Shown here: positions 1-31,303 of the stretch, piece by piece | How positions within the stretch are numbered: position 1 is the stretch's first letter | How the letters are laid out: every line of letters starts with the position of its first letter | Assembly (NCBI GenBank): GCA_030609775.1 | Contig: JAUWTD010000005.1 | Coordinates: 1 to 40,845 of the forward strand | DNA length: 40,845 bases | Direction of reading: 5' to 3' | DNA from: Candidatus Altarchaeota archaeon | GTDB taxonomy: Archaea; Altiarchaeota; Altiarchaeia; IMC4; QMZM01 | Notes under the pieces: model-generated | What the model saw: only the letters and a program-made list of their open reading frames with translations | What the model was told of the DNA's origin: nothing | Database searches by the model: none | Made by a program: the position numbers and the translations under genes

Positions 1-1290
1 GACGAGATAGATACAGATTGCGGCGGATCCTGTCCGCCTTGCGGCTGCTTTAATGAGGTATTGGATGGAGACGAATCCGACATAGACTGCGGAGGAAGCT
101 GCCCAGCCTGCATAAACGAAAAAAGCTGCCAAATAAACGAAGACTGCTTATCAGGGTGGTGTTTTAACGGAGTATGCACGGCCTCAAATTGCTTTGACGG
201 GATAAAGGGCCCCGGAGAAGACAGCGTAGACTGCGGAGGAAGCTGCCTGCCCTGCCACTGCTTCAACAACATATTAGACGAAGACGAATCAGCCATAGAC
301 TGCGGCGGAAGCTGTCCATCTTGCAGAACCATACGGGTAATAACAAACGAAACCACCTCATCCGGAGAAACAGTATCTATGGTATATAATGCCTCCAGTA
401 TCTGCCTCAACAACATGAAAGATAAATGCGAATCCGACGTAGACTGCGGCGGACATTGTCCGCCCTGCAGCAGCGGAGAAACATGTGGAGAGAACATAGA
501 TTGTTTAAGTGGATTCTGTTATGATAACGTATGTAGGATATCTGTCTGCGATGACGGATTACAGGGTCCAGAAGAAAATAAGATTGATTGTGGTGGACCC
601 TGTGGGAGCTGTCCCTGGGTTAAAGTCGAAACCCCGGGGTATAAAGGTGAAGAATTAAGGATTGTGGTGATGAATCCAAGAACCGGGCTTTACCTCATAG
701 TGAAAGGGCCTGATGGAGAAATAACTCAGTTTAACATAACACCGGAAGGATTAAGCACGTATCAGGTAATACCCTACATTCCATCTAAAACCGGATTATA
801 TTTGCTTGAGCTTAAAGGATACGATAAAAGATACACAAACGTGAAAAATAAGCCTATCTTGTATGTGATAGAGGATTTACCCCAAGAAATCCGAAGCCTC
901 CTACTTCCCCTATTGGCTGCCTTCGGCGGCATCCTTTTATGGAAGAGGAGGACAAAGATTGTTTTAGACGACTCAGCAATCAAGAAATTCATTAAAGAAG
1001 ATATGTTAGATAAATTAACCAAAAAATACAGAAAGGTTTACACTGCATCAGACCGAATTTGGAGGGCGGACAAACTCACCTTCATAGAACTAAGTGACTC
1101 AGAGATGGTTGCAGCAGAGGATCTCTCAGACCGGTACGGCATCATGTTAAACGACGCAAAAACATTGATATTATGCAAGAAACTGAAAGCCAAAAAACTT
1201 ATATCCGAAACCGAATTCCCTGAAGAAATCAGGGAAGGGTTCAAAGGAACACATATCGTAAGCACTGAAAAAGAATTAGAGGATTTTTGA
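1..1290 (+). CDS. Cys-rich membrane-anchored surface protein with PIN-like cytosolic tail (5' end outside window)
   Basis: The reading frame is open from base 1, so this is the C-terminal part of a longer protein. It begins with about six cysteine modules built on the pattern DESxxDCGGSCPPC, two of them followed by a CxxxxDCLSGWCFNGVC-type module. A β-rich stretch without cysteines follows (about 625-865), then a hydrophobic helix at 889-942 (IRSLLLPLLAAFGGILLW) and a basic WKRR stop-transfer signal. The last ~113 residues (952-1287) look like a PIN-nuclease fold: TKIVLDDSAIKKF as first strand and acid, LNDAKTLILCKKL as the DA helix, and LISETE as the last acidic strand. It is about 90% similar by eye to the end of the giant gene at 12172-22215 and must be its paralogue. 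The cysteine modules are probably disulfide-bonded outside the cell. The function is unknown and the PIN assignment is my inference from motif order. Confidence 0.85.
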   Translation, partial: DEIDTDCGGSCPPCGCFNEVLDGDESDIDCGGSCPACINEKSCQINEDCLSGWCFNGVCTASNCFDGIKGPGEDSVDCGGSCLPCHCFNNILDEDESAIDCGGSCPSCRTIRVITNETTSSGETVSMVYNASSICLNNMKDKCESDVDCGGHCPPCSSGETCGENIDCLSGFCYDNVCRISVCDDGLQGPEENKIDCGGPCGSCPWVKVETPGYKGEELRIVVMNPRTGLYLIVKGPDGEITQFNITPEGLSTYQVIPYIPSKTGLYLLELKGYDKRYTNVKNKPILYVIEDLPQEIRSLLLPLLAAFGGILLWKRRTKIVLDDSAIKKFIKEDMLDKLTKKYRKVYTASDRIWRADKLTFIELSDSEMVAAEDLSDRYGIMLNDAKTLILCKKLKAKKLISETEFPEEIREGFKGTHIVSTEKELEDF

Positions 1291-3218: not shown

Positions 3219-3249
3219 ATGTTAAGCGTTTTTATGTATTCACTCTAAT

Positions 3250-3702: not shown

Positions 3703-4926
3703 ATGCATCAGAACATCCAGCCGGAAATAAACATAGGCTTAGTAGGTCATGTAGATCATGGGAAAACAACACTTACAAAGGCATTATCGGGTATATGGAC
3801 AGATAAACACTCAGAGGAGATAAAAAGAGGGATCTCCATACGTTTAGGTTATGCAGATTGTGTATTCTACAAGTGCAGGGAATGTGATGAACCAAGTTGT
3901 TATTGTACGCAAAAGAAGTGCCCGAAATGCGGTTCTGAAACAGATTTTTTAAGGAAGGTGTCGTTTGTAGACTCGCCTGGCCATGAAACCCTTATGGCGA
4001 CGATGCTCTCAGGTGCAGCTATAATGGATGGAGCAGTGCTTGTCGTTGCAGCAAACGAAAAATGCCCGCAGCCTCAGACAGCAGAACACTTGATGGCATT
4101 AAATATTCTTGGAGTTGAGAACATAGTCATAGCACAAAATAAGATAGATTTGATTTCAAAAGAGGATGCCAAAAAAAACCATGATGAAATAAAGGAGTTT
4201 GTGAAAGACACAATAGCCGAAGACTCACTTATAATACCTATAGCAGCACACTACAACGCAAACATTGATTTACTGATAAAAGCAATAGAAGATAGGATTC
4301 AGACACCTGAACGGAATACAGAAAAAACTTCAAGGATGCGTGTTGCAAGATCATTTGATGTTAATCGCCCAGGAACTACACTAGATGAAATAAAAGGAGG
4401 TATTGTCGGAGGCTCAATACTTCAGGGTAAATTCAAGGTAGGGGACAAGATAGAATTCTGTCCAGGAGTTAAGAAAAAGAATACGTATACGCCAATACAG
4501 ACAGAGATAGTTAACTTATCTGTAGGGAATGAGAAGATAGACGAAGCTCGCCCAGGTGGATTGATTGCCATCTGCACCAAACTTGATCCGTCTCTCACAA
4601 AATCAGATAATCTATCAGGGAATGTGATAGGCATACCTGGAACCCTGCCCAAGGCAAAAGATAAGCTGAGATTGAAGATAAAGCTTCTTAAGAGACTTAT
4701 AGGGACCAAAGAGGAGATCAATATAACTGCCGTAGAAAAAAACGAGGCCCTTATGATGTCAGCAGGTAGCGCGATAACAGTGGGCATAGTCACAGACCCA
4801 AAGAAAGGAGAGATAAAATTAAAGCTTCCTGTTTGCGTTGAAGAAGGTGACTTGGTCGCCATAAGCAGACGCTTCGGAGCCAGATGGCGCCTTATAGGGT
4901 ATGGAATCGTCAAAGAAGACGGATAA
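3703..4926 (+). CDS. eif2g: Translation initiation factor aIF2, gamma subunit (GTPase)
   Basis: This is the GTPase core of archaeal initiation factor 2, which delivers Met-tRNAi to the small subunit. The 407 residues fit the family. The G-domain motifs are complete: G1 GHVDHGKT at about residues 15-22, the zinc-knuckle cysteines between 55 and 78 (CRECDEPSCYC then KKCPKC), G3 DSPGHE near 91 and G4 NKID near 144. Domain II begins near residue 205 (RMRVARSFDVNRPG) and domain III ends with RRFGARWRLIGYG. The cysteine knuckle and VNRPG separate it from SelB and EF-Tu. It ends one base before the start of the PIN-domain gene, implying co-translation. Confidence 0.97.
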   Translation: MHQNIQPEINIGLVGHVDHGKTTLTKALSGIWTDKHSEEIKRGISIRLGYADCVFYKCRECDEPSCYCTQKKCPKCGSETDFLRKVSFVDSPGHETLMATMLSGAAIMDGAVLVVAANEKCPQPQTAEHLMALNILGVENIVIAQNKIDLISKEDAKKNHDEIKEFVKDTIAEDSLIIPIAAHYNANIDLLIKAIEDRIQTPERNTEKTSRMRVARSFDVNRPGTTLDEIKGGIVGGSILQGKFKVGDKIEFCPGVKKKNTYTPIQTEIVNLSVGNEKIDEARPGGLIAICTKLDPSLTKSDNLSGNVIGIPGTLPKAKDKLRLKIKLLKRLIGTKEEINITAVEKNEALMMSAGSAITVGIVTDPKKGEIKLKLPVCVEEGDLVAISRRFGARWRLIGYGIVKEDG

Positions 4927-4927
4927 C

Positions 4928-5320
4928 ATGAAAAAAATTATAGTAGATACAAACTTTCTGATGATACCATATGCCCAAAAGATTGATATATTCGAGGAAA
5001 TACATAGACTCATTAAAGAAAAATACGAACTTGTTACACTCAAAGGGGTTATAAAAGAATTGGAGCGGATTATTGACGGACAGGAAAACAAGGGAAGTGA
5101 CAAGATTGCTGCAAAGATTGGCCTCCAGCTAATAGAGAAAAAAGATATAAGAGTGCTTTTAAGCCAGGGAATGGTTGATGAAGAAATAATCAACCTTTCA
5201 AGAAAGGATAAAAAAAACACGATAGTTTGCACAAACGATAAAAAACTAAGAAAACAGCTCAGAGAAGCAGGAATAACATTAATTGGCATGCGAAGTAGAA
5301 ACTATCTGGATTTCGTATAA
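4928..5320 (+). CDS. PIN-domain ribonuclease, FCF1/Utp24-like (archaeal rRNA processing)
   Basis: This is a 130-residue single-domain PIN protein. The first strand is KKIIVDTNFLMIPY with the leading catalytic Asp. A conserved Glu follows in VIKELERII. The third and fourth acidic positions lie in the later helix and in TIVCTNDKKLRKQL. The C-terminal VCTNDKKLRKQLREAG...MRSRNYL is characteristic of the FCF1/Utp23-like group, which acts on pre-rRNA in eukaryotes. An upstream in-frame start at 4901 would overlap aIF2-gamma by 26 bases. I prefer the ATG at 4928 because the fold begins there and the spacing is one base. Its position between aIF2-gamma and polymerase genes is conserved in many archaea. 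The precise RNA target is inferred. Confidence 0.9.
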   Translation: MKKIIVDTNFLMIPYAQKIDIFEEIHRLIKEKYELVTLKGVIKELERIIDGQENKGSDKIAAKIGLQLIEKKDIRVLLSQGMVDEEIINLSRKDKKNTIVCTNDKKLRKQLREAGITLIGMRSRNYLDFV

Positions 5321-12044: not shown

Positions 12045-12171
12045 TAGGGTATATTTAAACAAGGAGATTCAATAAACTTATGGCGTTTTAGTGGGTGGTT
12101 GAGTATCTCAGCTTGCTTGATTTGGTGAAGCAGGCAAATAGTTTGGCTTGGAAGAAAACAGGTGGTTTGGC
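12045..12171 (+). promoter_or_regulatory. Promoter and leader region of the giant surface-protein gene, with TTG-start ribosome binding site
   Basis: A TATA-like GGTATATTTAAAC lies near 12048-12060, about 112 bases before the chosen start, implying an untranslated leader of around 85 bases. An imperfect hairpin GCTTGCTT / AAGCAGGC (about 12113-12137, one G-T pair) lies in the leader. AGGTGG at 12160-12165 ends six bases before the TTG at 12172 and matches the archaeal anti-Shine-Dalgarno. An in-frame TAG at 12139-12141 excludes any earlier start except TTG 12148. Confidence 0.45.
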
Positions 12172-15100
12172 TTGAAGAATAGAATATTATTAGTAGTGTT
12201 AGCATTCAGCTTAATTTTCTGTGCAGACCTCATCCTCTCCGAATTTTCTAACTCAGGCGATCTATTCTTCGAGCTCTCAACAGATAGACCAATATATCAA
12301 CTGAATGAAACCGTTCGCATACAAGTGACTGCACCCGAAAACACATCAACGAACCTAACAATCCAAAACCCATCTAACATCACGTACACCACCCAGAAAG
12401 AAAAAACCGGCTCCTTCACACACATCTACACCCCAGACTCCACCGGAAACTACTCCATCCAAGCATTCTTTTCTCTCCACAACCAAAGCAGCAACATATC
12501 AACCTATTTTACAGTGACACAATCCCTGGAAGAAACCATAGAACCAGAAAACCAGACAAAATCCCTTCTTAAAACCTCGTCTCTTACAACCAACAAACCC
12601 ATTTATCTTCTAAACGAAACCGTCCGCATCACTATCACAGCACCAGAAAACACCACCACCAACCTAACCATACAAAACCCACTAGGAGAACTCTACTCAA
12701 CCCTGAAAGAAAACTTCGGCAGCTTCACCCACCTCTACATTCCAGAGTTTCTGGGAGATTACCTGATCCACACAAAACTCTCCTTACAAAACGAAACCAA
12801 AGAATTAAACACAAGCTTTGAGGTTATCTCAAACGAGACTAAACCACCTGCAGTAGAAGTGATTCAGAGAACAGCGGAACTATATAAGCCAGTCAGCTGG
12901 GTGAAGAAAATAACCATCAAAAACAACGATTCTCCACTCAAAGTAAGCCTAACCCAAGACCTTCCGCCGGATGCATCAAACATCCAAGTACACAACACAA
13001 AAAACAAAAAAACAGGTGCACAAACAACAGAACAAAATATATCCGGGCTGCTCCAGCCAAACGAAACCAACAAACTTATAATCGAATACACGACACCAGC
13101 CCCCTACAAAGAAGAGCAACTAATAGAAAACAAAACAAGATACCTAAAACAAGTAGATATAAAATCTGACTCATCCGTCCACTACACAAACGTCAAAGCA
13201 TACACAGACATAGAAGAAACCCTCTACAACCTGAGGTTGTATCACCTCATAAACGAAACCAGAATAGACGTAACCGTAAACCCTGTATACAACGTAACCC
13301 TTAGAAAAGATAGAATCTACTGGATCGTACCTCAACTAAGCAACCAATCCTTTGAAGTGGAAGCCGACTTAACAGTAATAAACATCCAATCCTACCCCAC
13401 CCTTAACGGAAACTGGACTGTTCGCTTTGAAACAAAAGAACAGGCAAACCTTAAAATAGCAGCAGTAGACGGAACCTACTTTGGCAGTGACCTAGAATTC
13501 CTTGAAATAAAATGCGGCAACACAACCCTAAGTTATGAATGGATAAACGGCTCCGTCTTCATATCAAACTATTCCTGCAACGAAACAGGATATGAGATCT
13601 CCAAGGTATTGACCACTGGAAGGCACACCCTCCAGTTCAGGTTCGGATCTGACGTAGAGTACGCCCACAACCTGGTAGCAGAGAACATAACCTTCGTACC
13701 CCCAACGCCAGAGAACAACACCTACAGAAATAATGACTGGGTTTACATAAACATCACATCCGACGAAAACCTGAACCAGTCCCTGCTAGAGTGGGGCAAC
13801 TCTACAGGGTATTATAATATCTCTATGACAAACTCCGCCTCAACGAACTGGTACATAAATATATCCAACCTCCCAAACTACGCCTTCAATTATACTCTCT
13901 GGGCACAGAACACAACAAGCAACTGGATCCAGACTGCGAGGAGGTTTGTTACAGTGGATACGGCAAATCCAATAATAAACTTCACCTCCCCGACCCCAGA
14001 CAACGATTCCTACAGAAGCAAGGACTGGGTTTACGTAAATGTATCAGTCAACGATACCTATAACACTACCGCGTTCATTGACTGGAACCACTCTCTGATC
14101 GGGTGGTGGAGGTTCAATGAGGGAAGTGGCAACATTACCTATGATTATTCCACGTATGGGAACAATGGAACCACTTATTTCTATGATCAGACAACCATAA
14201 GTAGTTGTGATTCAACCACGGACTGGCAGGGTACGTCCCTTTCACTGAATACCACCGATAAAATGGAGGGTTCTGCATCACTAGTGGATGCGGTGTCAAA
14301 TCCGAATACAAACCTGGAGTATGAAATCATCTACAATGAAACTGGAACATGGAACTGGACTGGAAAGGATAGGAGATACTATTACATTAAATCAAATGTT
14401 AGCTCCGGAAACTTCACATATAAAAGACTCTACATCTATGACTCAGATGAAAATTATGGATACTGGGATATACCTGATTTTACTCCCAATACATGGTGGA
14501 CGGATATATATTACGCTCTGGATTCTTATACTGGGACGGGTGGAACTGACCCGAATCTGAGTTCAATAGACTACTTGAGGTTTGTGTTCAATTCATCTAC
14601 CGGAGATAGTTACTGGATTAAGTTAGACTGGATTTATGTAACAGAGCAGGGACCTGTAGATTGGGGGGCTGGTAAATTCGGCTCTGCTCTGCAGTTCGAT
14701 GGGTTTAGTGATTACCTGGATTTATCAGACCACAAAAACGATCCAGAGTTTAACATATCCCAGGGCGCTATTGAAATGTGGTTTAACCCAAAGGCAGATA
14801 ACTACTACAGCCAACTGCTTAACTTCAGAAAAACAGGCGTAGATGATATCATTTTCATTAGAGAGTGGAGGGAATCCTACATTAATTTTTACGGTGAAAT
14901 TGCAAACGTCCCACAATTCAATTTAAATACGCCCTCGAGTTCGATTTCTGCAGGCACTTGGAGTCACCTAGTTTTCCAGCAGAATGGTTCAGGAATAGAA
15001 GCCTACATTAACGGGGAAAAACAAAACCTAGGAGGTACAGGGGAAAACTCTACAATGTGGTTTACAGATGTTTTCCCCGCATCAGTAGATTTCAGAATAG

Positions 15101-18100
15101 GTCACTACGGATCCTGGGCTGATGGAGGACAAACATGTTATTTCAACGGCACCATCGATGAAGTCCGCATCTGGAACCGCTCCCTAACACCAGAAGAGAT
15201 CAACGCCTCCTACAACGCCGGAATATGGAAACTGAAGAACAACTACACCAGCCTCGTAGACGGCATATATGAGTATACTGCCTACGCTCAAGACCTCGCA
15301 GGTAACGTCAACCAGACCGAGATACGGACTTTAACAGTGGACACAACCCCTCCAGAAATAAACTTCACAGATCCTACACCAGAAGACGATAATCTCACAT
15401 CAAATAATTGGGCGTATATTAATGTCTCGGTTGTTGATCTCTCCCCGACTTCCTCATTTATTGACTGGAATCGTTCACTGGTCGGATACTGGTCATTCGA
15501 ACACGTATTGTCTAATGGAACCGTCTACGATAACTCAACCTATGGGAATGATGGAGTGATGAAAAATTTCACCTACAATATCACAGTAACAGGAAAATTT
15601 GGAAACGCATTAGAGTTTGATGGAATTGATAGCTACGTTGAAATACAAAATTCTGAATCTTTAAACCTAAATGGAGCCCTGACCTTGGAGACCTGGGTGT
15701 ATCCTCAGAGAAGAGATGATTGGTATGCTTTTATTGCCAAAGATTATGAACCAGGTTCAGGGCAACAATGGAAACTATGTTTCGGAGGTTCCTCACCAGA
15801 TTGGGGCTTTAGTTGGTGGAATGGAACTCTTTGGCGCGATTATGTTGGAGGTAACCTACCGTTGAATGAATGGTCACATATAGCCTGTGCAATTAGTGAT
15901 TCCCAAATAAAATGCTATAGAGACGGGAGTGTATCTCACGAGTTTAGTGGTGTGACAATAGACATACAAAAAACAGTAGGGGGCGTATATCTCTCCGCAG
16001 TAAAAGTTGATGGACCAGAGAAAACAAAAGCTATCCTAGATGAAGTCCGTATATGGAACCGCGCCCTTTCAGCGGAGGAAATCAACGCCTCATACAATTC
16101 TGGAATTTACCAGTTACACCGGAATTTCACAAATCTAACAGATAGCGAACATAGATATTATGCTTATTCGATAGATTTAGCAGGTAATTCAAATAAAACT
16201 GAGACTATGACATTGACTGTTGATACAGTTGCTCCACATATAACATTAAACTCTCCTGAAAATATTACATATAACACGTTAAACATAGATTTAAATTGGA
16301 CTTACAGCGAAGCATTGGTTTGGTGTGCCTATTCTGTTAATCATACAACTAATACTAGCTTTACAGCAGAGGGAGAATATATTGGAGAAAGTTTCAATAC
16401 ACCCGGTAGCCCCTATGGAATAACCCAAAACAAAACCTACTTTTGGATTATTGATGCTCCAGCAGGCACGATCAAAAAATACTGGATGAATGGAACATAC
16501 ACAGGAAACAGCTTCGGGACAAATGGAAGTACGGGAATAACCCAAGACGGAACCTACTTTTGGGTTGTTCATCATAGTAATAAAGATGTTCACAAATACT
16601 GGATGAATGGAACATACACCGGAGAATATTTTAACACAACAGCTGCTAACGACTACCCAAATGGGATAACCCAAAATGGCACCTACTTTTGGATTACTGA
16701 CTGGGGAGATGGAAACGTATATAAATACTGGATGAATGGAACATACACCGGAGACAGTTTCAGTACAGACGGGGGAGCAAGTGGAATAACCCAAGACAGA
16801 ACCTATATTTGGGTAACTCAAAACTCAGCTGATGAAATCGACAAATACTATATGAATGGAACGTATGCAGGTAATTTTGATACCGGACCCGGTGGCAACC
16901 CCGTTGGAGTAACTCAGGATGGAACCTATTTTTGGATTACTAATTGGGATGTTGACAAGGTATACAAATATTATTTCGGGGATTTTAAAAATTGTATCAA
17001 TAAAACAATAACCTGCTCTGAGGGTGCGAATATTGCAACTGTCTGGGGTAGAGATGATGCAGGGAATGTGAATTCTTCCACAATTTATTTCACAATAGAC
17101 CTACCACCCACACCAGTAACCTTATTAACCCCCACAAATAATTCGTATACAAATAACAACACACCAGAATTCGACTGGACAGATTCAACAAATATTTCAA
17201 CAATAATATATCACCTGCAAATAGATGATAGCGCAGACTTTTTAAGTCTGAATCTGAATAAAACAGGAATTCTGGACTCGAATTATACGTTAAGTGGAGG
17301 AGAAGCACTCCCAGACGGAACATATTACTGGAGGGTCAGGGCAAACAATAGTGCAGGCAGCTGGGGCAACTGGTCTGAGAACGGAATCTTTAGAGTTACT
17401 GTGGATACGGTGAAGCCAACAGTTACAATAATTGTACCGGAAAATAATTCTTATACAAACGACAATACCCCTCTCTTGAATGCTGTATCTTCTGATAATT
17501 ATTCAGATTCTATGGAGTATTCTCTTGACTCTGGAATAAATGAATCATGCAACAACGCAACCTCCTGTCTCCTGAATTTATCAAAGAACTGGGTTATCGG
17601 TTCAGGTGGAGGTAATTGGAGTGGGAGTGTTAGTTTTGAAAATACGACTAAAGAGAGTAATGAACAGGTAATCCTTGAACATTTGGATTGGTGGAATTTT
17701 AGGTGGAATTATCGGATAAATGTCACGATAGATACAACAGATTACATTCGGACTGATTATCCAATCGAATACATTATAAACTTCACTAAGAAGTTAAGTG
17801 ATGTAGGCTGTAGCGGCTGCATATTTGATAATAATTCAGTGAGGGTTATTGAATATAATGCAACAGGAAATATTATCTATGAAATATCCTCGCAGTTTGA
17901 TGAGACTTATGGTTATAACAGTCAAACAAATGCCGTTGGCGAGGTAGTCTGGATACTGAACGGAACAACTCCCCCGGATACGAAAAAGTATTTCTATATT
18001 TACTTTGATACAGCCGATAATATTAAGAACGCCATAGATTATTCGCCTTCATTCACGACAGCATATAACCCAGATTCAAACATAACTCTCCGCTACAACG

Positions 18101-21100
18101 GAAACATCATTACAGTAGTCGATATTAAAACAGGAGGAACAAGAAGTGAAGGATGTGCCCGCTCAAATGGCGGTCTACTCCAGCTAAACACATTAAATGG
18201 AACAAATTCTATAGATTCAACACAGGATTGGATTATACCTGACGAATACCTGGCATGGGGTGATTGCGGTACAGGTAGGGTGGAGCCCTATGCGTTATTG
18301 GATTATAAAATCACGACAGGGCCTGTGAGAACCATAATATTTACTCAATTCAATTCAAGCAAACCAACATATGTCAACCACTATAATTTCACATGGACTT
18401 TTTATTCAGGAGAAAACACCGAACTAAAAGGAAGATTTAATTGGACTGTTGCAGTAAATACGTCATTTAGTTTTGGGAATTTCGATTGGCCCAGACAGAT
18501 TGGTGTCGATCAGAGCTCCGGGAGATATGACAGCTACTCAACAGGCAATACAACAGGCGTTATCGGTGCCTGCATTTTTAAAGTAGATGCAAGTGATAGA
18601 TATGATTCGGTTTTTGACAGCAGTGGTTCTTATCCGACAATATCTTTTGTCACAACACAAAATAACTGGTCTAAACTAGACCTAACCAGTTGCATAGGAG
18701 GCCAAAAATATCTGTTAGGGCATGCTATTGATGGGACTACAATGACCTACTCGGGTGTAATGAATAACCTATGGTGGTTCCAGGTTTATCCGGGAATATT
18801 TGACAACACAAAAACTAAGGCATTCTCCGATAGTGTTATGAGTCCACTGAATATAAGCAGCGGAAACATAGATAAAGATAAATTTTATCCGTTATCAGGC
18901 AACCTAACATCCCTCCCCCAAGACGCAGAATCCTTAGAAGGCATAGGATCCGTCTGGAAACAGATCAAATTTGACGGCACAGTCCCTGCAGGAACAAACG
19001 TTTCAGTTTACGTGAACATGTCCACAGACAACACAACATGGAGTAACTGGGTTTTGGTTAAAGAAAACGCCTCACCCCAGGTATTCTATGAACTACCCAC
19101 ATCAAACCAGACAAGGTATGGAAGCTGGAAACTGGTCCTGGAAACGAACGACTCCTCAATAACCCCCGAGATTTCATCTGTGTCATTCGGTGCTTCCTTG
19201 ATTGAGGGACTGCATAACGTAACGGTCTACGCCCAGGATTTAGCAGGGAACCTGAATTACTCCATAGTCTATTTCACAATCGATACACACATAGACCTTA
19301 CACTATCCCCCGGAGACATCATATCCCCAAACACATCACTTATAGGGCAACTCATCACAGTAACCGCAACCATACACAACACAGAAACATGTGGATACGA
19401 CAACTTTGGTGTCTCACTGCTCGTCGACGGAACAACACACAGCAGCAACACCGTATCAGTCGGAGGAAACACAAGCGTTGAGACACACTTTTATTGGACG
19501 GCAGTCGATGGAACACATAACCTAACCGTCATAGCCGACCCAGACAACAGCGTAACAGAAACCAACGAATCAAATAATAACGCCACAAAACAGATCAATG
19601 TCACCGGATCTACCCCACCCTCCCGCAAACACATGACAATATACACAAACGGAGACTGCGTAAACGAAACCGTATCAATCACCTTAATAGACGAAGACAG
19701 CCAAGATGTAGCAGACGCAGACATAGAAGTATATTATGATGGATCAAAAATAGAAGACAAAACAACCAACAGCCAAGGCGAAACCTCCTTCATTCCCAGA
19801 GAAGAAGGAACATACGAAATATTTGCCGAAAAAACAGGATGCTATGACGAACAAAAAGAGATAGATGTAACCGTATGTGAAACATGCAGTGACGGAGTAC
19901 TTAATCAAGATGAATCAGATGTAGACTGCGGCGGAGTATGTCCGCCTTGCGGCGACAACCAAAGCTGCCAAAATGATGCAGACTGCAGTTCAGGGTGGTG
20001 TCTTAGTGGAGAATGCCGGACTTCAACTTGCAGCGACGGATTACTCGGCCCCGGAGAAGAAGACATAGACTGCGGCGGAAGCTGCCCAACCTGTGAAACA
20101 TGCACGGACACAATACAAAACCAAGACGAAACCGACATAGACTGCGGAGGAGTATGTTCTCCTTGCAGTGACGGCAGCGACTGCATAACAGATTCCGATT
20201 GCACCTCTGGATGGTGTCTTAACGGAACCTGCAGTGTTGCGTCATGCACTGACGGAGTAAGGAACCAGGATGAATCAGACGTAGACTGCGGCGGAGGATG
20301 TCCGCCTTGCAGCGACGGCAGCGGATGCAATATAGACGGAGACTGTACCTCTGGGTGGTGTTTTAATGGATCATGTGTATCGGTTTCATGCAGCGACGGA
20401 GTACAAAACCAGGATGAATCTGATATAGACTGCGGCGGATCTTGTCCTCCTTGCGGCGACGGCAGCAACTGTATAACCGATTCTGATTGTACCTCAGGAT
20501 GGTGCCTTAACGGAACCTGCAACGTTGCATCATGTAGTGACGGAGTACAAAACCAGGATGAAACCGATGTAGACTGCGGCGGAGTTTGTTCTCCATGCGG
20601 TGACGGATTGAATTGTTCAATTGACTCCGATTGTGTGAGCAACTGGTGTCTGGTTGGAGTCTGCACTACACAATCCTGCTTTGACGGAGTGATGAATCAG
20701 GATGAGTCAAGCATAGATTGTGGAGGAATTTGTCTGCCTTGCACTCAAGGAGAATCATGTGCAGTAGACGACGACTGCTTAACAGGTTGGTGTTTCAACG
20801 GATCATGTATGATGCCATCCTGTTTTGACGGATTCCAAAACCAGGACGAGAACGGAATAGATTGCGATGGAAGCTGCCTGCCCTGCCATTGTTTCAATGG
20901 ATCATTAGACGGAGACGAGATAAATACAGACTGCGGTGGATCATGTCCGCCTTGCGGCTGCTTTAATGAGGTATTGGATGGAGACGAAAGCGACGTAGAC
21001 TGCGGAGGAAGCTGCCCAGCCTGCGTAAACGAAAAAAGCTGCCAAATAAACGATGACTGCGTATCTGGGTGGTGTTTTAACGGAGTATGCACGGCCTCGA

Positions 21101-22215
21101 ATTGTTTTGACGGGATAAAAGGCCCAGGAGAAGACGACATAGACTGCGGAGGAAGCTGCCTGCCCTGCCACTGCTTCAACAACATATTAGACGGAGACGA
21201 ATCAGCCATAGACTGCGGTGGAAGCTGTCCGCCTTGCAGAACTATAAGAGTAATAACAAACGAAACCACTTCATCAGGAGAAACCGTATCTATGATATAT
21301 AATGCCTCCAGTATCTGTCTCAACAACAGAAAAGACAAAGGCGAATCCGACATAGACTGCGGAGGACATTGTCCGCCCTGTAGCAGCGGAGAAACCTGTG
21401 AAGAGAACATGGATTGTTTAAGCGGATTCTGTTATGAGGGGGTATGCAAGATATCTTCCTGCGACGACGGATTAGAGGGTCCAGAAGAAAATAAGATTGA
21501 TTGCGGTGGACCTTGTGGAAGCTGTCCCTGGATTAAAGTCGAAACTCGAAGCTATTTAGGTGAGGAATTGGGAATCGTTGTAATGAATCCTCGAACCGGC
21601 CTCCTCCTCAGATTAAAAGAACCCAACGGAAAAATCAAGGAATATAATATAACAAAGAAAGGTTTAAGCACCTACCAAACAATACAGTATCAACCCAACA
21701 CAACCGGATTATATCTGCTTGAATTAGAAGGCTACGATGAAAGATACGTTAACGTGAAAAATAAACCAGTTATTCCCGGATTAGAAAAGTTACCCGAGGA
21801 AATCAGGAGTCTTCTGCTCCCCCTATTGGCGGCATTAGGCGGCATATTATTCTGGAAGAATAGGAGAACAAAGGTTGTTGTAGATGAGTCAGCAATCAAG
21901 AAATTCATTAAAGAAGATATGTTAGATAAATTAACCAAAAAATATAGAGAAGTATATACCGTATCCGATGGAATTCAGGGGAGGGGTAAACTCGTATTCA
22001 TAGAACTCAGCGACTCAGAGATGGTTGCAGCAGAAGATCTCTCAGATCAGTATAGTATTATGTTAACTGATGCGAAAACACTAATTTTATGCAAGAAACT
22101 GAAAGCCAAAAAAGTTATATCAGACAAGGAACTACCTGAAGAAATCAGAGACAATTTCAAAGGAACAAAAATTGTAAGCACTGAAAAAGAATTAGAAAAA
22201 TATGTGACAGGATAA
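12172..22215 (+). CDS. Giant modular membrane-anchored surface protein (LamG, propeller-like, DUF2341, CARDB, Cys-rich repeats, PIN-like tail)
   Basis: About 3,347 residues. Order of parts (approximate residues): signal peptide 1-24; two MG2-like repeats 35-117 and 138-222 (each with P-I-Y-x-L-N-E-T-V-R-I); an intact Ig-like domain 507-599; an Ig-like domain split by LamG 643-1018; another split by LamG 1103-1313; one split by five 40-residue propeller-like repeats 1402-1603 (YWMNGTYTG); an FN3-like domain 1644-1743; an Ig-like domain split by DUF2341 and more (1840-2340); CARDB 2371-2478; a carboxypeptidase-regulatory-like domain 2487-2568; 14 DCGG cysteine modules 2571-3118; a β-domain; TM helix 3210-3227 followed by KNRR; PIN-like domain 3233-3347. 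N-glycosylation sequons are dense outside and absent after the TM helix. It probably binds sugars or surfaces. No ATG fits the start; TTG 12172 has the better ribosome site, TTG 12148 is the alternative. Confidence 0.88.
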   Translation: MKNRILLVVLAFSLIFCADLILSEFSNSGDLFFELSTDRPIYQLNETVRIQVTAPENTSTNLTIQNPSNITYTTQKEKTGSFTHIYTPDSTGNYSIQAFFSLHNQSSNISTYFTVTQSLEETIEPENQTKSLLKTSSLTTNKPIYLLNETVRITITAPENTTTNLTIQNPLGELYSTLKENFGSFTHLYIPEFLGDYLIHTKLSLQNETKELNTSFEVISNETKPPAVEVIQRTAELYKPVSWVKKITIKNNDSPLKVSLTQDLPPDASNIQVHNTKNKKTGAQTTEQNISGLLQPNETNKLIIEYTTPAPYKEEQLIENKTRYLKQVDIKSDSSVHYTNVKAYTDIEETLYNLRLYHLINETRIDVTVNPVYNVTLRKDRIYWIVPQLSNQSFEVEADLTVINIQSYPTLNGNWTVRFETKEQANLKIAAVDGTYFGSDLEFLEIKCGNTTLSYEWINGSVFISNYSCNETGYEISKVLTTGRHTLQFRFGSDVEYAHNLVAENITFVPPTPENNTYRNNDWVYINITSDENLNQSLLEWGNSTGYYNISMTNSASTNWYINISNLPNYAFNYTLWAQNTTSNWIQTARRFVTVDTANPIINFTSPTPDNDSYRSKDWVYVNVSVNDTYNTTAFIDWNHSLIGWWRFNEGSGNITYDYSTYGNNGTTYFYDQTTISSCDSTTDWQGTSLSLNTTDKMEGSASLVDAVSNPNTNLEYEIIYNETGTWNWTGKDRRYYYIKSNVSSGNFTYKRLYIYDSDENYGYWDIPDFTPNTWWTDIYYALDSYTGTGGTDPNLSSIDYLRFVFNSSTGDSYWIKLDWIYVTEQGPVDWGAGKFGSALQFDGFSDYLDLSDHKNDPEFNISQGAIEMWFNPKADNYYSQLLNFRKTGVDDIIFIREWRESYINFYGEIANVPQFNLNTPSSSISAGTWSHLVFQQNGSGIEAYINGEKQNLGGTGENSTMWFTDVFPASVDFRIGHYGSWADGGQTCYFNGTIDEVRIWNRSLTPEEINASYNAGIWKLKNNYTSLVDGIYEYTAYAQDLAGNVNQTEIRTLTVDTTPPEINFTDPTPEDDNLTSNNWAYINVSVVDLSPTSSFIDWNRSLVGYWSFEHVLSNGTVYDNSTYGNDGVMKNFTYNITVTGKFGNALEFDGIDSYVEIQNSESLNLNGALTLETWVYPQRRDDWYAFIAKDYEPGSGQQWKLCFGGSSPDWGFSWWNGTLWRDYVGGNLPLNEWSHIACAISDSQIKCYRDGSVSHEFSGVTIDIQKTVGGVYLSAVKVDGPEKTKAILDEVRIWNRALSAEEINASYNSGIYQLHRNFTNLTDSEHRYYAYSIDLAGNSNKTETMTLTVDTVAPHITLNSPENITYNTLNIDLNWTYSEALVWCAYSVNHTTNTSFTAEGEYIGESFNTPGSPYGITQNKTYFWIIDAPAGTIKKYWMNGTYTGNSFGTNGSTGITQDGTYFWVVHHSNKDVHKYWMNGTYTGEYFNTTAANDYPNGITQNGTYFWITDWGDGNVYKYWMNGTYTGDSFSTDGGASGITQDRTYIWVTQNSADEIDKYYMNGTYAGNFDTGPGGNPVGVTQDGTYFWITNWDVDKVYKYYFGDFKNCINKTITCSEGANIATVWGRDDAGNVNSSTIYFTIDLPPTPVTLLTPTNNSYTNNNTPEFDWTDSTNISTIIYHLQIDDSADFLSLNLNKTGILDSNYTLSGGEALPDGTYYWRVRANNSAGSWGNWSENGIFRVTVDTVKPTVTIIVPENNSYTNDNTPLLNAVSSDNYSDSMEYSLDSGINESCNNATSCLLNLSKNWVIGSGGGNWSGSVSFENTTKESNEQVILEHLDWWNFRWNYRINVTIDTTDYIRTDYPIEYIINFTKKLSDVGCSGCIFDNNSVRVIEYNATGNIIYEISSQFDETYGYNSQTNAVGEVVWILNGTTPPDTKKYFYIYFDTADNIKNAIDYSPSFTTAYNPDSNITLRYNGNIITVVDIKTGGTRSEGCARSNGGLLQLNTLNGTNSIDSTQDWIIPDEYLAWGDCGTGRVEPYALLDYKITTGPVRTIIFTQFNSSKPTYVNHYNFTWTFYSGENTELKGRFNWTVAVNTSFSFGNFDWPRQIGVDQSSGRYDSYSTGNTTGVIGACIFKVDASDRYDSVFDSSGSYPTISFVTTQNNWSKLDLTSCIGGQKYLLGHAIDGTTMTYSGVMNNLWWFQVYPGIFDNTKTKAFSDSVMSPLNISSGNIDKDKFYPLSGNLTSLPQDAESLEGIGSVWKQIKFDGTVPAGTNVSVYVNMSTDNTTWSNWVLVKENASPQVFYELPTSNQTRYGSWKLVLETNDSSITPEISSVSFGASLIEGLHNVTVYAQDLAGNLNYSIVYFTIDTHIDLTLSPGDIISPNTSLIGQLITVTATIHNTETCGYDNFGVSLLVDGTTHSSNTVSVGGNTSVETHFYWTAVDGTHNLTVIADPDNSVTETNESNNNATKQINVTGSTPPSRKHMTIYTNGDCVNETVSITLIDEDSQDVADADIEVYYDGSKIEDKTTNSQGETSFIPREEGTYEIFAEKTGCYDEQKEIDVTVCETCSDGVLNQDESDVDCGGVCPPCGDNQSCQNDADCSSGWCLSGECRTSTCSDGLLGPGEEDIDCGGSCPTCETCTDTIQNQDETDIDCGGVCSPCSDGSDCITDSDCTSGWCLNGTCSVASCTDGVRNQDESDVDCGGGCPPCSDGSGCNIDGDCTSGWCFNGSCVSVSCSDGVQNQDESDIDCGGSCPPCGDGSNCITDSDCTSGWCLNGTCNVASCSDGVQNQDETDVDCGGVCSPCGDGLNCSIDSDCVSNWCLVGVCTTQSCFDGVMNQDESSIDCGGICLPCTQGESCAVDDDCLTGWCFNGSCMMPSCFDGFQNQDENGIDCDGSCLPCHCFNGSLDGDEINTDCGGSCPPCGCFNEVLDGDESDVDCGGSCPACVNEKSCQINDDCVSGWCFNGVCTASNCFDGIKGPGEDDIDCGGSCLPCHCFNNILDGDESAIDCGGSCPPCRTIRVITNETTSSGETVSMIYNASSICLNNRKDKGESDIDCGGHCPPCSSGETCEENMDCLSGFCYEGVCKISSCDDGLEGPEENKIDCGGPCGSCPWIKVETRSYLGEELGIVVMNPRTGLLLRLKEPNGKIKEYNITKKGLSTYQTIQYQPNTTGLYLLELEGYDERYVNVKNKPVIPGLEKLPEEIRSLLLPLLAALGGILFWKNRRTKVVVDESAIKKFIKEDMLDKLTKKYREVYTVSDGIQGRGKLVFIELSDSEMVAAEDLSDQYSIMLTDAKTLILCKKLKAKKVISDKELPEEIRDNFKGTKIVSTEKELEKYVTG
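19882..21525 (+). repeat. Cysteine-module repeat array inside the giant gene
   Basis: Fourteen modules of the form NQDESDxDCGGxCPPC, eight of them followed by a second module CxxDxDCxSGWCxxGxC, repeat with a period near 125 bases. The last ones (20918-21525) are the part shared with the gene at window start. Even numbers of cysteines per module suggest internal disulfides. The acidic DE.D..CGG pattern could bind calcium, which is inference. Confidence 0.85.
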
Positions 22216-26210: not shown

Positions 26211-26224
26211 TTTTACCCTTTTTT
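26211..26224 (+). terminator. T-rich terminator after the asparagine-synthase-like gene
   Basis: TTTTACCCTTTTTT starts seven bases after the stop of the + strand operon. It overlaps the 3' end of the convergent MopE-type gene, whose last codons it also forms on the - strand. Confidence 0.5.
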
Positions 26225-29200
26225 AAGTGGCCATATCTTGAGCTTGTCTATGCACGAATACCCATGCCAGAACGGATCAAGTTCTCCGCGATTCATCTCG
26301 AATGCTATGCAGCAGCTGCCACCTGGATCTTCCCAGAAGTATTTCCAATATCCAAAGATATAATTACTCCATACAGAAGTACATTTACGGCATTCTCTTG
26401 TAAGTTTCAGTTCAGAATCCTCAAAACCTATTCCCTTATATGCACCCATTGTTTCCTGCGTCCAGAAAAGGTTGCGATTGCACATAGTTGGTTGAGCTAG
26501 ACATTCACCATAAGGTATGTTAATGGGTATACCCCCGCTACCTATCCATAGAGTCTGACAAAGATTCTGGACTGAATTACTGCATTCAAGATTGATATCA
26601 TCCACATGAAAGAAGGGATCTCCTTCTCTCCAGTAGCTGTCACCCAGGGAATTTGACAAAGCCGGACCATGAGGAATATCTAACCAACATTTCCCATAAT
26701 AGTCAGGTAAGTAAATCACCTCACAGTTGCAGTTTGCACCATCTGAATAAGCATATGCAAAATCAACAAGCGTCTTCAAGTCTGCTCTCGTGGGGAGCTC
26801 CCAGTCACCTGACTGTGAGCCATCAGAAAGCCCATACATTCCATCTTCCAAGCCTGAGACTATGTCCTTGGCATTATCCCAAGTACCCGGCGGAATCGCC
26901 GTAACATCCTGAAGCCATACATATCCATTTGTGTTGTCACGGACTGTTCCATCACCCATGATGCTGAAACGTTCATCAATCTTACCGTCGCAGTTGTCAT
27001 CTATGCCATTATGCTGTTCGATTTGAGATGGATTGACTGCATCATTTGTGTCATCACAGTCACCCATGTTAGGAGTATATCCATCCAGGTCCCAGTCACA
27101 TACCTCATCAATACCATCTACACAGTTGTCATCTATGTGATTGCATATCTCAGCGGCATCGGGATTGACTTCTGGATCAGAATCATCACAGTCAGGTCCC
27201 TCATTCGTGGTTTCCAGAACAAGGAATCCGTCCCCGTCATTATCAACCAAGGCCTCTCTTACTGGCCAGACATAGAATGAATAATAACCTATCCAGTTGC
27301 GTGACATGCTGAAATAGTCAGTGCACGGGCCAATGGGCATTATCCTGAATAGCTTCTGATTGGTTTCAGAGTAGGGTGTGCTGGTCCAGTATGCTTCATA
27401 CTTGCCTTTTTTCACATTACTGAAGGGATCTCCCTCAGACCACGGCCCAATCCCGGCAGTATTGCTCAAATAACATAAAATGCCGCAGTATCCGCACAGT
27501 GCCATGTTTTCTTCAATGCTTGGGATCCTCCAGGCACCTGGCCACGAACTGTCTGATAAACTGCATTGGCCATCACCTAGACTATTGACTCTGTTTATGG
27601 CCGAATCATAGGACATAAGTCCGCCACCGATGCAACCGGCATTCTTCAGCCAGTACAGTCCTGTTTCTGTATCCAGGATTGTGCCGTCTCCCTGGTCTTC
27701 GAACCTGCAGACCAGACCCTCAGGCTCATCGATTTCACCGTCGCAGTCATTGTCTATTCCGTCGCAACCCTCAACTGCTCCGGGATGAACAGCCCAGTTA
27801 TCATCATCACAATCTTCTGAATTCGCCACATAGCCTGGGCGGGCAGCGCATGTTGAGATACTGGAAGTTCCGCCATAACCATCTCTATCCCGGTCTCTGT
27901 AGATTGTTATCCGTACACCTTCATCAATCATACCGTCACAGTCATTGTCTTTACTGTCACAGACCTCTGTTCCCTCTGGATTGATGTCTGGATTAGAATC
28001 GTCACAGTCTCCTAACATGGTTACATATCCCTCTGGCTGTGAGCAGGCCCAGGTAATCTCAAGAGCACCGTAGGTATCATTGTCCCTGTCCCTGAAGTAG
28101 TAGTTCTTTTTCTCTGGCACGCCGTCGCAGTTATTGTCTATTCCGTCACATATGTCAGCAGCACCAGGATGGATATTTGGATCAGTATCATCACAATCCC
28201 CTGAGTTTGCTACATAACCCTCTGGAGCAGAACAAGCCTGGATGCCTGCTGTGCTGCCATAGGAATCATTGTCTGAGTCCCTGTAGAAGGTGAGCTTAAC
28301 ACCCTCGTCTATCTGGCTGTCGCAGTCATTGTCTATTTCATCACAGAGTTCTGTTGCACCCGGATTGATATACTGGTCAGTATCATCACAATCGCCTTCC
28401 TCAGGTGAATACCCATCAGAATCATAGTCACATGTTTCGTCTATCTGGCTGTCGCAGTTATTGTCTATGCCGTCGCAGACCTCTTCAGCGTCCGGATTAA
28501 CGGCTGGATTAGTGTCGTTACAATCAGGCCCTGCATAATGCCCGTCATTGTCAAGGTCGACAAGCACATCCCTCACTGCCATTGCATAACCTGAATACAT
28601 ATTTAATCTGCATTCGACTGTAAAATACCATCTTGCCTTATATGAAATCATAGAATTGATGTAGAAAGTTCTGACAAGGGAACCCGTATGGACTTCTACT
28701 AGAACAAAACTTATTGTCTTCATTTTACATTCATCTCCTGTGCTTGTCCAGTAATAGTAACCAATAGGGTCATTGTAATGAGGATAATACCAACTGATTA
28801 CATCAACAAAAGGATCTCCAGGCAGCCAGCGGCCGTTACCTTCTGCATTACCCAGGCAGTCAGCCCACAAACCCAGACCCTCACAGTATTCCTGTTTAAA
28901 AAGAGAATTCAACTCATCAAAAGTGGGGATTCTCCAGTTGCCTGGTCCGGAGCCATCGCTGAGCCCGCATTGTCCATGGTGAAGGTTATTTACTTGTGTC
29001 AGCAGCCCTGTTTCAGATGCCTCATCCTCATAATATCCGGGTCCGAGGCAATTAGCATCTCTTAGCCAATAAAGGTCAGTCTCCCTATCGAAAAGCGTGC
29101 CATCTCCCATGTTTTTGAACCGTACAGGGCAACTGTCGCTGCCGTCGCAGTCCTGGTCAATGCTGTCGCAGAGTATTTCAGTTGCACCAGGGTGGATAGA

Positions 29201-31303
29201 TGGATTGGCATCATTGCAGTCTCCGTCACATATGGAATACCCGTCAGAATCACCATCCCCCAGACCATCATCTATTTCACCGTCGCAGTCATTATCTATA
29301 CCATCACAAACTTCTGCTGCTCCGGGATGGCGACCAGCATCTGTATCGTCGCAGTCAGTTGAAAGAGATACATATCCTATTGGAGCTGAGCATGCTTCAG
29401 TGCTCTCTGTGCTTCCGTAACCATCTCCGTCAGAATCTTGATAGAAAATTGTCTTGCCAGCGCCTTCATCAATCTCATCATCACAATCATTGTCTTTATC
29501 ATCGCATACTTCCAGAGCCCCTGGATTTATAAATTGATCAAAATCGTTGCAGTCACCTGAGACCGCCACATAGCCCGAAGGTGTAGTACATGCCTCGATG
29601 CTTTCTGTGCTGCCATAGCCATCTTCGTCAGCATCCCGGTACAAGGTGAGCATGGAGATGCCCTCGTCTATTTCACCATCACAGTCATTATCTATTCCAT
29701 CGCAGACCTCTGTTGCGCCCGGATTTGTATTGGGCTTGGCATCATCACAGTCATCTGAGTTATCTATATAACCAGCCGGGGCTGAACATGCCAGCGTGAC
29801 TTCGGCACCGCCGTAACCATCCCCGTCTCTATCATTATAGAAAAACGATTCCACATCCTCATCTATCTCTCCGTCACAGTTGTTGTCTATTCCATCGCAG
29901 ACCTCGTCTGCTCCAGGGTAATTTGCCGGATTAGCATCATCACAGTCACCTGGATTCTCCACATAGCCTTCTGGAGCAGAACATGCCTCGATGCTCTCTG
30001 AGCTGCCATAGGAATCCCCGTCAGAGTCTTCATAATAAGTGAACATTGTAAGATCCTCATCAATCTCACCATCACAGTCATTATCTATTCCATCGCAGAC
30101 CTCTGACAGACCCGGGTTCCTTGTTGCATCAAAATCATCACAGTCCCCATTATTTACGCTGTAACCTTCGGGAACTGAACATGCTTCAACAGTCTCTGTT
30201 CCACCATAGGAATCCCCGTCAGAATCCTTGTAGAAGACCAGTTTGACACCTTCATCTGTTTGGTTATCACAGTCATTGTCTATGCCATCACAGACCTCAT
30301 CTGCCCCAGGATTTATCATTGGGTTGCTATCATCACAGTCAGAGCCACATGAGCTATACCAGTTATCGTAGCCATCATTGTCAGCATCATAACCATCGTC
30401 CACTATCCCATTACAGTCATTGTCTTTATTGTCGCATATCTCCATTACACCAGGATGGATAAGCGGATCAGTGTCATCACAGTCTCCAGCACAGGTCGTA
30501 TAACCATCAAGATCAGCATCAAAACCCTCGTCAACCATAAGGTCGCAATCATTGTCCACCCCATCGCAGACCTCATCTGCTCCAGGGTGGATTGCAGCAT
30601 CAGTGTCATCGCAGTCACCATCACAGATCCTATACCCGTCACTATCAGCGTCAACTTCGTCGCCTGGAACTACACCATCACAATCATTATCCAGTCCATC
30701 ACATAATTCAGGAGCACCAGGATAGACAGCGCTGTTGCTGTCGTCACAATCACCCTCACAGATACGGTAGCCATCATTATCAACATCAGATTCATCTTCC
30801 GGAACCACCCCATCACAATCATTATCAACACCATCGCACACTTCTATTGCACCCGGATTTATTAAGGGATTATTATCGTCGCAATCACCGTCGCTTATGC
30901 GAAATCCGTCATTATCAAGGTCAATTTCACATTGAGTGTTTACGAAATCATCCATAACACCTATACTGCAGCCGAAAAAATACTGGCCAAACTGCTTGTC
31001 CGCAGAAAATCTAAGAATCTGTTCACACGAACAGCCACATGTTGAAAATCCATCACTACCATCAAGGCTATATGCTTTCTGAGGGCCTTTTCCTTTTGGA
31101 GAATTTGTATCAAAAACAATATCATTGTCTACCAAGGCGAATCTGTTCTTCCCAAGCCATAACACCGGAACAATCTCATCTAACTCTGTATTTTCTGGAC
31201 AGACATCCCAAGCATCTGGAACAGTATCATAATCAGAATCAGTTGTTGCATTTGCAGAAGTAACAGAAAGAAATAACAATATTAAAATAATGGTTTTTTT
31301 CAT
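26213..31303 (-). CDS. Secreted MopE-repeat protein with three DUF1566 (Lcl-like) domains
   Basis: A 1,696-residue exported protein. Residues 1-19 are a signal peptide (MKKTIILILLFLSVTSANA). A thrombospondin-3-like start (DSDYDTVPDAWDVCPEN) and a GFSTCGCSCEQIL...FGCSIGVM domain follow to about residue 118. Next come 18 metal-binding MopE-type repeats (DxDxDGY...GDCDD...NPGAxEVCDGIDNDCDG) arranged 11, 5 and 2, each group followed by a DUF1566 domain (about 727-908, 1198-1352 and 1444-1696). Those domains show MGDGTxxDxxTxLYWLxD, a GNWRIPT-like motif and a final WPVR or equivalent. MopE repeats bind calcium or copper in related proteins; DUF1566 domains are C-lectin-like and adhesive. There is no C-terminal anchor, so it is probably released or bound to the envelope. 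The ribosome site AGGTGG lies about nine bases before the ATG. Confidence 0.93.
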   Translation of the reverse strand: MKKTIILILLFLSVTSANATTDSDYDTVPDAWDVCPENTELDEIVPVLWLGKNRFALVDNDIVFDTNSPKGKGPQKAYSLDGSDGFSTCGCSCEQILRFSADKQFGQYFFGCSIGVMDDFVNTQCEIDLDNDGFRISDGDCDDNNPLINPGAIEVCDGVDNDCDGVVPEDESDVDNDGYRICEGDCDDSNSAVYPGAPELCDGLDNDCDGVVPGDEVDADSDGYRICDGDCDDTDAAIHPGADEVCDGVDNDCDLMVDEGFDADLDGYTTCAGDCDDTDPLIHPGVMEICDNKDNDCNGIVDDGYDADNDGYDNWYSSCGSDCDDSNPMINPGADEVCDGIDNDCDNQTDEGVKLVFYKDSDGDSYGGTETVEACSVPEGYSVNNGDCDDFDATRNPGLSEVCDGIDNDCDGEIDEDLTMFTYYEDSDGDSYGSSESIEACSAPEGYVENPGDCDDANPANYPGADEVCDGIDNNCDGEIDEDVESFFYNDRDGDGYGGAEVTLACSAPAGYIDNSDDCDDAKPNTNPGATEVCDGIDNDCDGEIDEGISMLTLYRDADEDGYGSTESIEACTTPSGYVAVSGDCNDFDQFINPGALEVCDDKDNDCDDEIDEGAGKTIFYQDSDGDGYGSTESTEACSAPIGYVSLSTDCDDTDAGRHPGAAEVCDGIDNDCDGEIDDGLGDGDSDGYSICDGDCNDANPSIHPGATEILCDSIDQDCDGSDSCPVRFKNMGDGTLFDRETDLYWLRDANCLGPGYYEDEASETGLLTQVNNLHHGQCGLSDGSGPGNWRIPTFDELNSLFKQEYCEGLGLWADCLGNAEGNGRWLPGDPFVDVISWYYPHYNDPIGYYYWTSTGDECKMKTISFVLVEVHTGSLVRTFYINSMISYKARWYFTVECRLNMYSGYAMAVRDVLVDLDNDGHYAGPDCNDTNPAVNPDAEEVCDGIDNNCDSQIDETCDYDSDGYSPEEGDCDDTDQYINPGATELCDEIDNDCDSQIDEGVKLTFYRDSDNDSYGSTAGIQACSAPEGYVANSGDCDDTDPNIHPGAADICDGIDNNCDGVPEKKNYYFRDRDNDTYGALEITWACSQPEGYVTMLGDCDDSNPDINPEGTEVCDSKDNDCDGMIDEGVRITIYRDRDRDGYGGTSSISTCAARPGYVANSEDCDDDNWAVHPGAVEGCDGIDNDCDGEIDEPEGLVCRFEDQGDGTILDTETGLYWLKNAGCIGGGLMSYDSAINRVNSLGDGQCSLSDSSWPGAWRIPSIEENMALCGYCGILCYLSNTAGIGPWSEGDPFSNVKKGKYEAYWTSTPYSETNQKLFRIMPIGPCTDYFSMSRNWIGYYSFYVWPVREALVDNDGDGFLVLETTNEGPDCDDSDPEVNPDAAEICNHIDDNCVDGIDEVCDWDLDGYTPNMGDCDDTNDAVNPSQIEQHNGIDDNCDGKIDERFSIMGDGTVRDNTNGYVWLQDVTAIPPGTWDNAKDIVSGLEDGMYGLSDGSQSGDWELPTRADLKTLVDFAYAYSDGANCNCEVIYLPDYYGKCWLDIPHGPALSNSLGDSYWREGDPFFHVDDINLECSNSVQNLCQTLWIGSGGIPINIPYGECLAQPTMCNRNLFWTQETMGAYKGIGFEDSELKLTRECRKCTSVWSNYIFGYWKYFWEDPGGSCCIAFEMNRGELDPFWHGYSCIDKLKIWPLKKG

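Follow-up and report, generated by a model that had tools for sequence, protein, structure and literature searches.

A predicted, degenerate PIN-fold tail at the putatively cytosolic end of giant surface proteins of Altiarchaeota

How the giant surface proteins of archaea communicate with, or attach to, the cell interior is largely unknown, and the locus analyzed here raises this question in a concrete form: what is the 115-residue domain that follows the only C-terminal hydrophobic helix of one such protein, and what might it do there? The gene lies in a 40,845-nucleotide stretch of DNA from Candidatus Altarchaeota archaeon (contig JAUWTD010000005.1, forward strand; hereafter the window), where it is flanked by the housekeeping genes aTrm56 and carA (Table 1). 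Pfam and NCBIfam searches assigned MG2/filamin-like, two Laminin_G_3, Big_13 and CARDB domains to the ectodomain, a long region of which is occupied by Cys-rich CGGxCxPC repeats preceding the transmembrane helix and the PIN-like tail.

Only two hydrophobic segments stand out in the encoded protein, at residues 13-31 and 3218-3236 (Kyte-Doolittle hydropathy of 2.70 and 1.57, the next best segment scoring 1.19). The second of these averages 1.57 over 19 residues and 2.02 over 17, and the helix is short, at ~17 residues; it is seen in all full-length homologues, invariably with basic residues after it. With a signal peptide, one C-terminal helix and a positive-inside tail, the protein has the make-up of a single-pass surface protein. 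The helix and the KNRR run before the last 115 residues (residues 3241-3355) lie where a preliminary description of this DNA had placed them, and the compositional contrast drawn there also held: residues 1-3220 contain 140 N-x-S/T sequons and 111 Cys, and the tail one Cys and no sequon, as against ~5 sequons expected per 115 residues at ectodomain density. The positive-inside KNRR and the sequon-free tail both fit the inside location proposed at the time and, by topology rules, the tail is predicted to lie in the cytosol. Ca. Altiarchaeum has been described as having two membranes (PMC4460559), either of which may carry the helix.

Table 1. Coordinates of the features discussed in the text. 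Positions refer to the window unless a locus (L) is given.
Feature	Position	Strand	Remarks
Giant surface-protein gene	12148..22215	+	3355 aa, TTG start
Hydrophobic core of N-terminal signal peptide	12184..12240	+	residues 13-31, hydropathy 2.70
Reused C-terminal module (juxtamembrane, TM and tail), 152 aa	21757..22212	+	six genome copies
C-terminal transmembrane segment SLLLPLLAALGGILFW	21808..21855	+	hydropathy; kept in homologues
KNRR stop-transfer / positive-inside signal	21856..21867	+	basic run conserved in homologues
Predicted degenerate PIN-fold, putatively cytosolic tail, 115 aa	21868..22212	+	AlphaFold2, Foldseek, hhalign
First PIN acid, D6 (present)	21883..21885	+	acidic in 12/14 homologues
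Catalytic Glu position, Gly38 (lost)	21979..21981	+	alignment with homologues and canonical PINs
Third acid D68 with Ala69-Lys70 (A-[KR] signature)	22069..22077	+	third position acidic in 10/14
Fourth acid, D86	22123..22125	+	acidic in 8/14
Second TM and PIN-like module in the window	844..1290	+	tail 952-1287, stop 1288-1290
C84 and C31 tail copies	L002:1495-1836 and L004:1609-1950		dS comparison
Methanogen giant and helix-PIN-tail gene pair	L138:785-6953, L139:6359-12316, L140:6320-11832, L141:6109-12426		
G331 beta-helix surface protein ending in a helix and PIN-like tail	L109:1506-1850		

The AlphaFold2 model of the window tail, built from 14 homologues (pLDDT 84.3, pTM 0.71), displays the beta-alpha order of PIN domains. 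When this model was compared with the PDB using Foldseek, 15 of the 16 leading matches were VapC, archaeal PIN-family or PIN-like RNase P proteins, some of which are titled hypothetical and are taken by us to be PIN proteins; the PIN entries among these leading matches had probabilities of 0.95-1.00 and query TM-scores of 0.49-0.66, although the E-values were weak (7.7e-3 at best) despite probabilities near 1. In profile-profile comparisons with hhalign, tail profile A1 aligned with 15 canonical Altiarchaeota PINs in the expected register (E 1.2e-4), with LTDAK matched to the motif of the third acid and ISD to that of the fourth. Given that the PIN-dominated Foldseek list and the hhalign comparison agree, the PIN-like order of elements pointed out in the preliminary description is real rather than fortuitous, and a PIN fold of the tail is supported at the level of the model.

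With the short G326 and G256 ORFs set aside, all of the soluble proteins matched by tail profiles in 394 archaeal genomes and inspected were PIN/VapC/DUF3368-like: DUF3368/PIN proteins of G230, G190 and G145, and a VapC-like protein of G381. The best soluble PIN matches of a wider profile, A8, reached E-values of 8.8e-10 (G145) and 6.3e-9 (G230). One tail homologue matches Pfam PIN at E 0.0067; the best homologue scores 17.5 bits against PF01850, below the curated cut-off of 23.6. The window tail itself returned nothing significant from Pfam, NCBIfam or a PDB sequence search, and viral contigs yielded no relative; designed repeat proteins matched by the profile were rejected as repeat artefacts. 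A further profile, A7, is weak against canonical PIN alone (E 0.0054) and is tied to the PIN family by its match to A1 (E 4.2e-8), which covers the N-terminal half only.

Whether the domain could still cut RNA depends on its acidic positions. The preliminary description had correctly located D68 (within LTDAK) and D86 (within ISDKEL), which are the third and fourth acids, and the window copy retains three of the four PIN acids. The placement of the second PIN element at KLVFIELSDSEM needs correction: in PIN domains the catalytic Glu comes immediately behind the second strand (YTVSDGIQGRG), at a position where the window copy carries Gly38; tail residues 35-40 include no Asp or Glu, and a nearby acid could substitute for the lost Glu. 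The Asp-Glu-Asp triad of VapC-type catalytic PINs is thus interrupted by a Gly at its Glu position. Across the 14 tails, positions 1 to 4 are acidic in 12, 5, 10 and 8 copies, respectively, the counts at position 38 hanging on the loop alignment and being the least certain of the four, and no copy has all four acids together. The third position is occupied by D, E, T, M or W in close homologues and mostly by Ser in the methanogen tails described below. Among canonical Altiarchaeota PINs, by comparison, D, E and D occupy the first three positions in 15/15 cases and the fourth acid is present in 10/15, in a set (A4) that was drawn from the best PF01850 matches and is therefore biased towards intact PINs. 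A working nuclease, raised earlier as a possible RNase, does not stand up to this variation of the acidic positions among homologues, an outcome that the preliminary description had itself named as refuting; the signalling role suggested there is likewise unsupported. Judging from the residues at its catalytic positions, part of which have been lost, the window tail is probably non-catalytic, and a role in binding or coupling is more likely than enzymatic activity.

Other positions hardly vary. The Ala after the third-acid position is found in 14/14 Altiarchaeota tail rows and 13/13 methanogen rows, and the Lys/Arg of the A-[KR] signature in 13/14 Altiarchaeota tails and 12/13 methanogen rows (one of them a duplicate) as against 0/15 canonical PINs; A69 and K81 are invariant across the 14 tail rows. 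Since A-[KR] stays fixed while the catalytic acids vary, the tail family is conserved for a role apart from the PIN active site.

The helix and tail form a module present in six copies in the genome, the others being 77-83% identical to the window copy, plus one fragment; one of the six, also in the window, closes a paralogous giant protein that is truncated at the contig start. Purifying selection acts on the tail, dN/dS being 0.11-0.29 in 14 of 15 paralogue pairs. In the remaining, low-dS pair (C84-C31; dN/dS 0.67), the contrast between the dS of the tails (0.21) and that of the ectodomains (0.99) hints at exchange or recombination of tails between the two paralogues. Within the phylum, the tail profile matches 13 of 29 Altiarchaeota genomes; G013 and G010 come in with a second profile, built on the more divergent f7 family. 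Wherever enough sequence is available, the tail of the Altiarchaeota homologues ends a secreted-type ORF right after the helix and basic run. One G013 protein carries two tandem PIN-like tails after a single helix (L112:3047-3706), and each of the two is acidic at every one of the four PIN positions; from their residues, these distant, divergent tails, which are in the minority, would be the best candidates for retained activity.

Profile A1 also matches a protein of ~500 aa, made up of a signal peptide, ectodomain, helix and tail, in 15 of the 36 genomes of a methanogen order (mcrA in 5/5 genomes tested; two families) that we infer to be, most likely, Methanococcales. Its tail is nearer to A1 (E 1.7e-7) than to canonical PIN (E 4.6e-5), and its separate model again finds PIN first, the early matches including Nob1 from the pre-40S ribosome and PIN proteins from P. 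horikoshii. In 4/4 genomes inspected, the PIN-tail gene directly follows a giant secreted-type ORF that is 1331-1586 aa long and lacks a C-terminal helix, the spacing ranging from a 4-bp overlap to a ~64-bp gap. Because the PIN-tail gene follows a helix-less giant ORF, the fused chain of Altiarchaeota may correspond to two neighbouring genes in the methanogens. A weaker match (E 6.9e-5) was found in a third archaeal group (G331) at the end of a beta-helix surface protein that terminates in a helix and PIN-like tail. Two candidate relatives of the latter tail in its own order (L136, L137), weak matches in helical-repeat ORFs, were rejected as chance. These are giant ORFs of two further archaea and carry LLxKGWxxxxVxxxL helical repeats, apparently another kind of repeat domain.

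Archaeal single-pass surface proteins of the S-layer-like or adhesin-like type have a signal peptide, glycosylation-rich repeats, a C-terminal helix and a short basic tail, whereas here a conserved 115-aa domain, predicted to be folded, follows the helix. With soluble PINs of the VapC/DUF3368 type (PF01850, PF11848), the tail shares its predicted fold, strand-helix order, sequence-profile homology and, in most copies, the first and third acid positions; it departs from them in the loss of the catalytic Glu and in a Lys/Arg that sits two positions beyond the third acid. Unlike small soluble VapC toxins, it is tethered to the membrane on a giant secreted protein, and no antitoxin gene adjoins it in the window, where the neighbours are aTrm56 and carA; no binding partner or conserved neighbour was detected for the Altiarchaeota tails. 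Bacterial PIN-TRAM/YacL-type proteins also tie a PIN domain to the membrane, but through several helices, and are not known to carry a giant ectodomain such as the one joined here through a single helix. In MUT7-C, as in the tail, a nuclease-like fold is a proposed binding module (for RNA or protein); that domain, once characterised as a deteriorated PIN-like domain and reported as only distantly related to PIN, is soluble, has a zinc finger and lacks a membrane helix (PMC11347159). A search of the open-access literature, most subscription papers being beyond its reach, returned no published account of PIN-tailed surface proteins. To that extent the architecture appears new for a known fold, and it occurs in two archaeal groups.

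The reading that we favour, with a probability of about 0.6, is that of a degenerate, most likely non-catalytic PIN-fold tail, cytosolic and held by a single helix, which serves as a reusable module of the Altiarchaeota giants, most likely as a binding adaptor. A binding function is suggested by the conservation of the tail without its catalytic set. The large ectodomain would bind or assemble outside the cell, the single helix would cross the membrane, and the tail would dock a partner in the cytosol, be it a protein, a further PIN tail or perhaps RNA, that would then fix, position or report on the surface protein. Against this reading weigh the failure to find a partner or conserved neighbour in Altiarchaeota, the three acids kept by the window copy together with a nearby acid that could replace the Glu, the weak Foldseek E-values and the two membranes described for Ca. 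Altiarchaeum. A tomography paper on Ca. Altiarchaeum hamiconexum describes a faint layer beneath the inner membrane that could be either artefactual or part of an anchoring structure (PMC4460559); this layer concerns a different surface structure and is only a lead.

A folded tail might instead act as a passive anchor, merely preventing the giant from being pulled out or exported, in which case no partner would be needed. Such a role would be consistent with the tail always being the final element after the helix and basic run, and with helix-less methanogen giants preceding the gene for a PIN-tailed membrane protein. A few basic residues suffice for simple anchors, however, and the residue-level conservation of A69, K81 and A-[KR], the latter maintained in a second archaeal group, suggests a specific contact, all of which leaves us to regard the passive anchor as rather unlikely. 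That the PIN likeness itself is convergent, or a chance match of a Rossmann-like or RCK-like alpha/beta domain, seems highly improbable: the missing Pfam/NCBIfam matches of the window tail, Foldseek E-values above 0.001 and the RCK and epimerase folds further down the match list point that way, but structure, profile-profile comparison and a genome search reaching soluble PINs concur, one homologue matches Pfam PIN itself, and the methanogen tail was modeled separately with the same outcome.

Catalysis would re-enter if the tail were a working PIN nuclease controlled through binding by the ectodomain. The three acids retained in the window copy, the prevalence of an acid at the D6 position, the four-acid tandem tails of G013 and the presence of Glu at the third position of a soluble DUF3368-type PIN (L119) speak for such an RNase receptor. 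The Gly at the catalytic Glu position, the lack of any four-acid set among close homologues and the drift of the third acid, set against the intact first three acids of the canonical PINs of the phylum, make it decidedly doubtful for this protein. A broader proposal, speculative and in our view improbable as a whole, would have PIN-fold tails couple giants to the cytosol in at least two archaeal phyla, fused in Altiarchaeota or as an adjoining gene in methanogens, with some of them (the tandem tails of G013, for example) still cutting RNA as receptor-RNases from which pseudo-nuclease adaptors originated.

As a binding adaptor, the tail would clearly illustrate how a nuclease fold can be put to another use once the catalytic set is gone. 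It offers a concrete handle on the inner end of giant surface proteins, its presence in six paralogues and in a cultivable methanogen order opening it to pull-down, structure and deletion work. Elsewhere in the window, a second giant secreted protein of 1696 aa (26213-31303, minus strand) combines 18 stretches of the MopE metal-binding motif with Lcl_C domains and has no C-terminal helix by hydropathy scan, and an ordinary PIN gene encoding a soluble PIN_9 protein (4901-5320, plus strand) lies beside that of eIF2 gamma.
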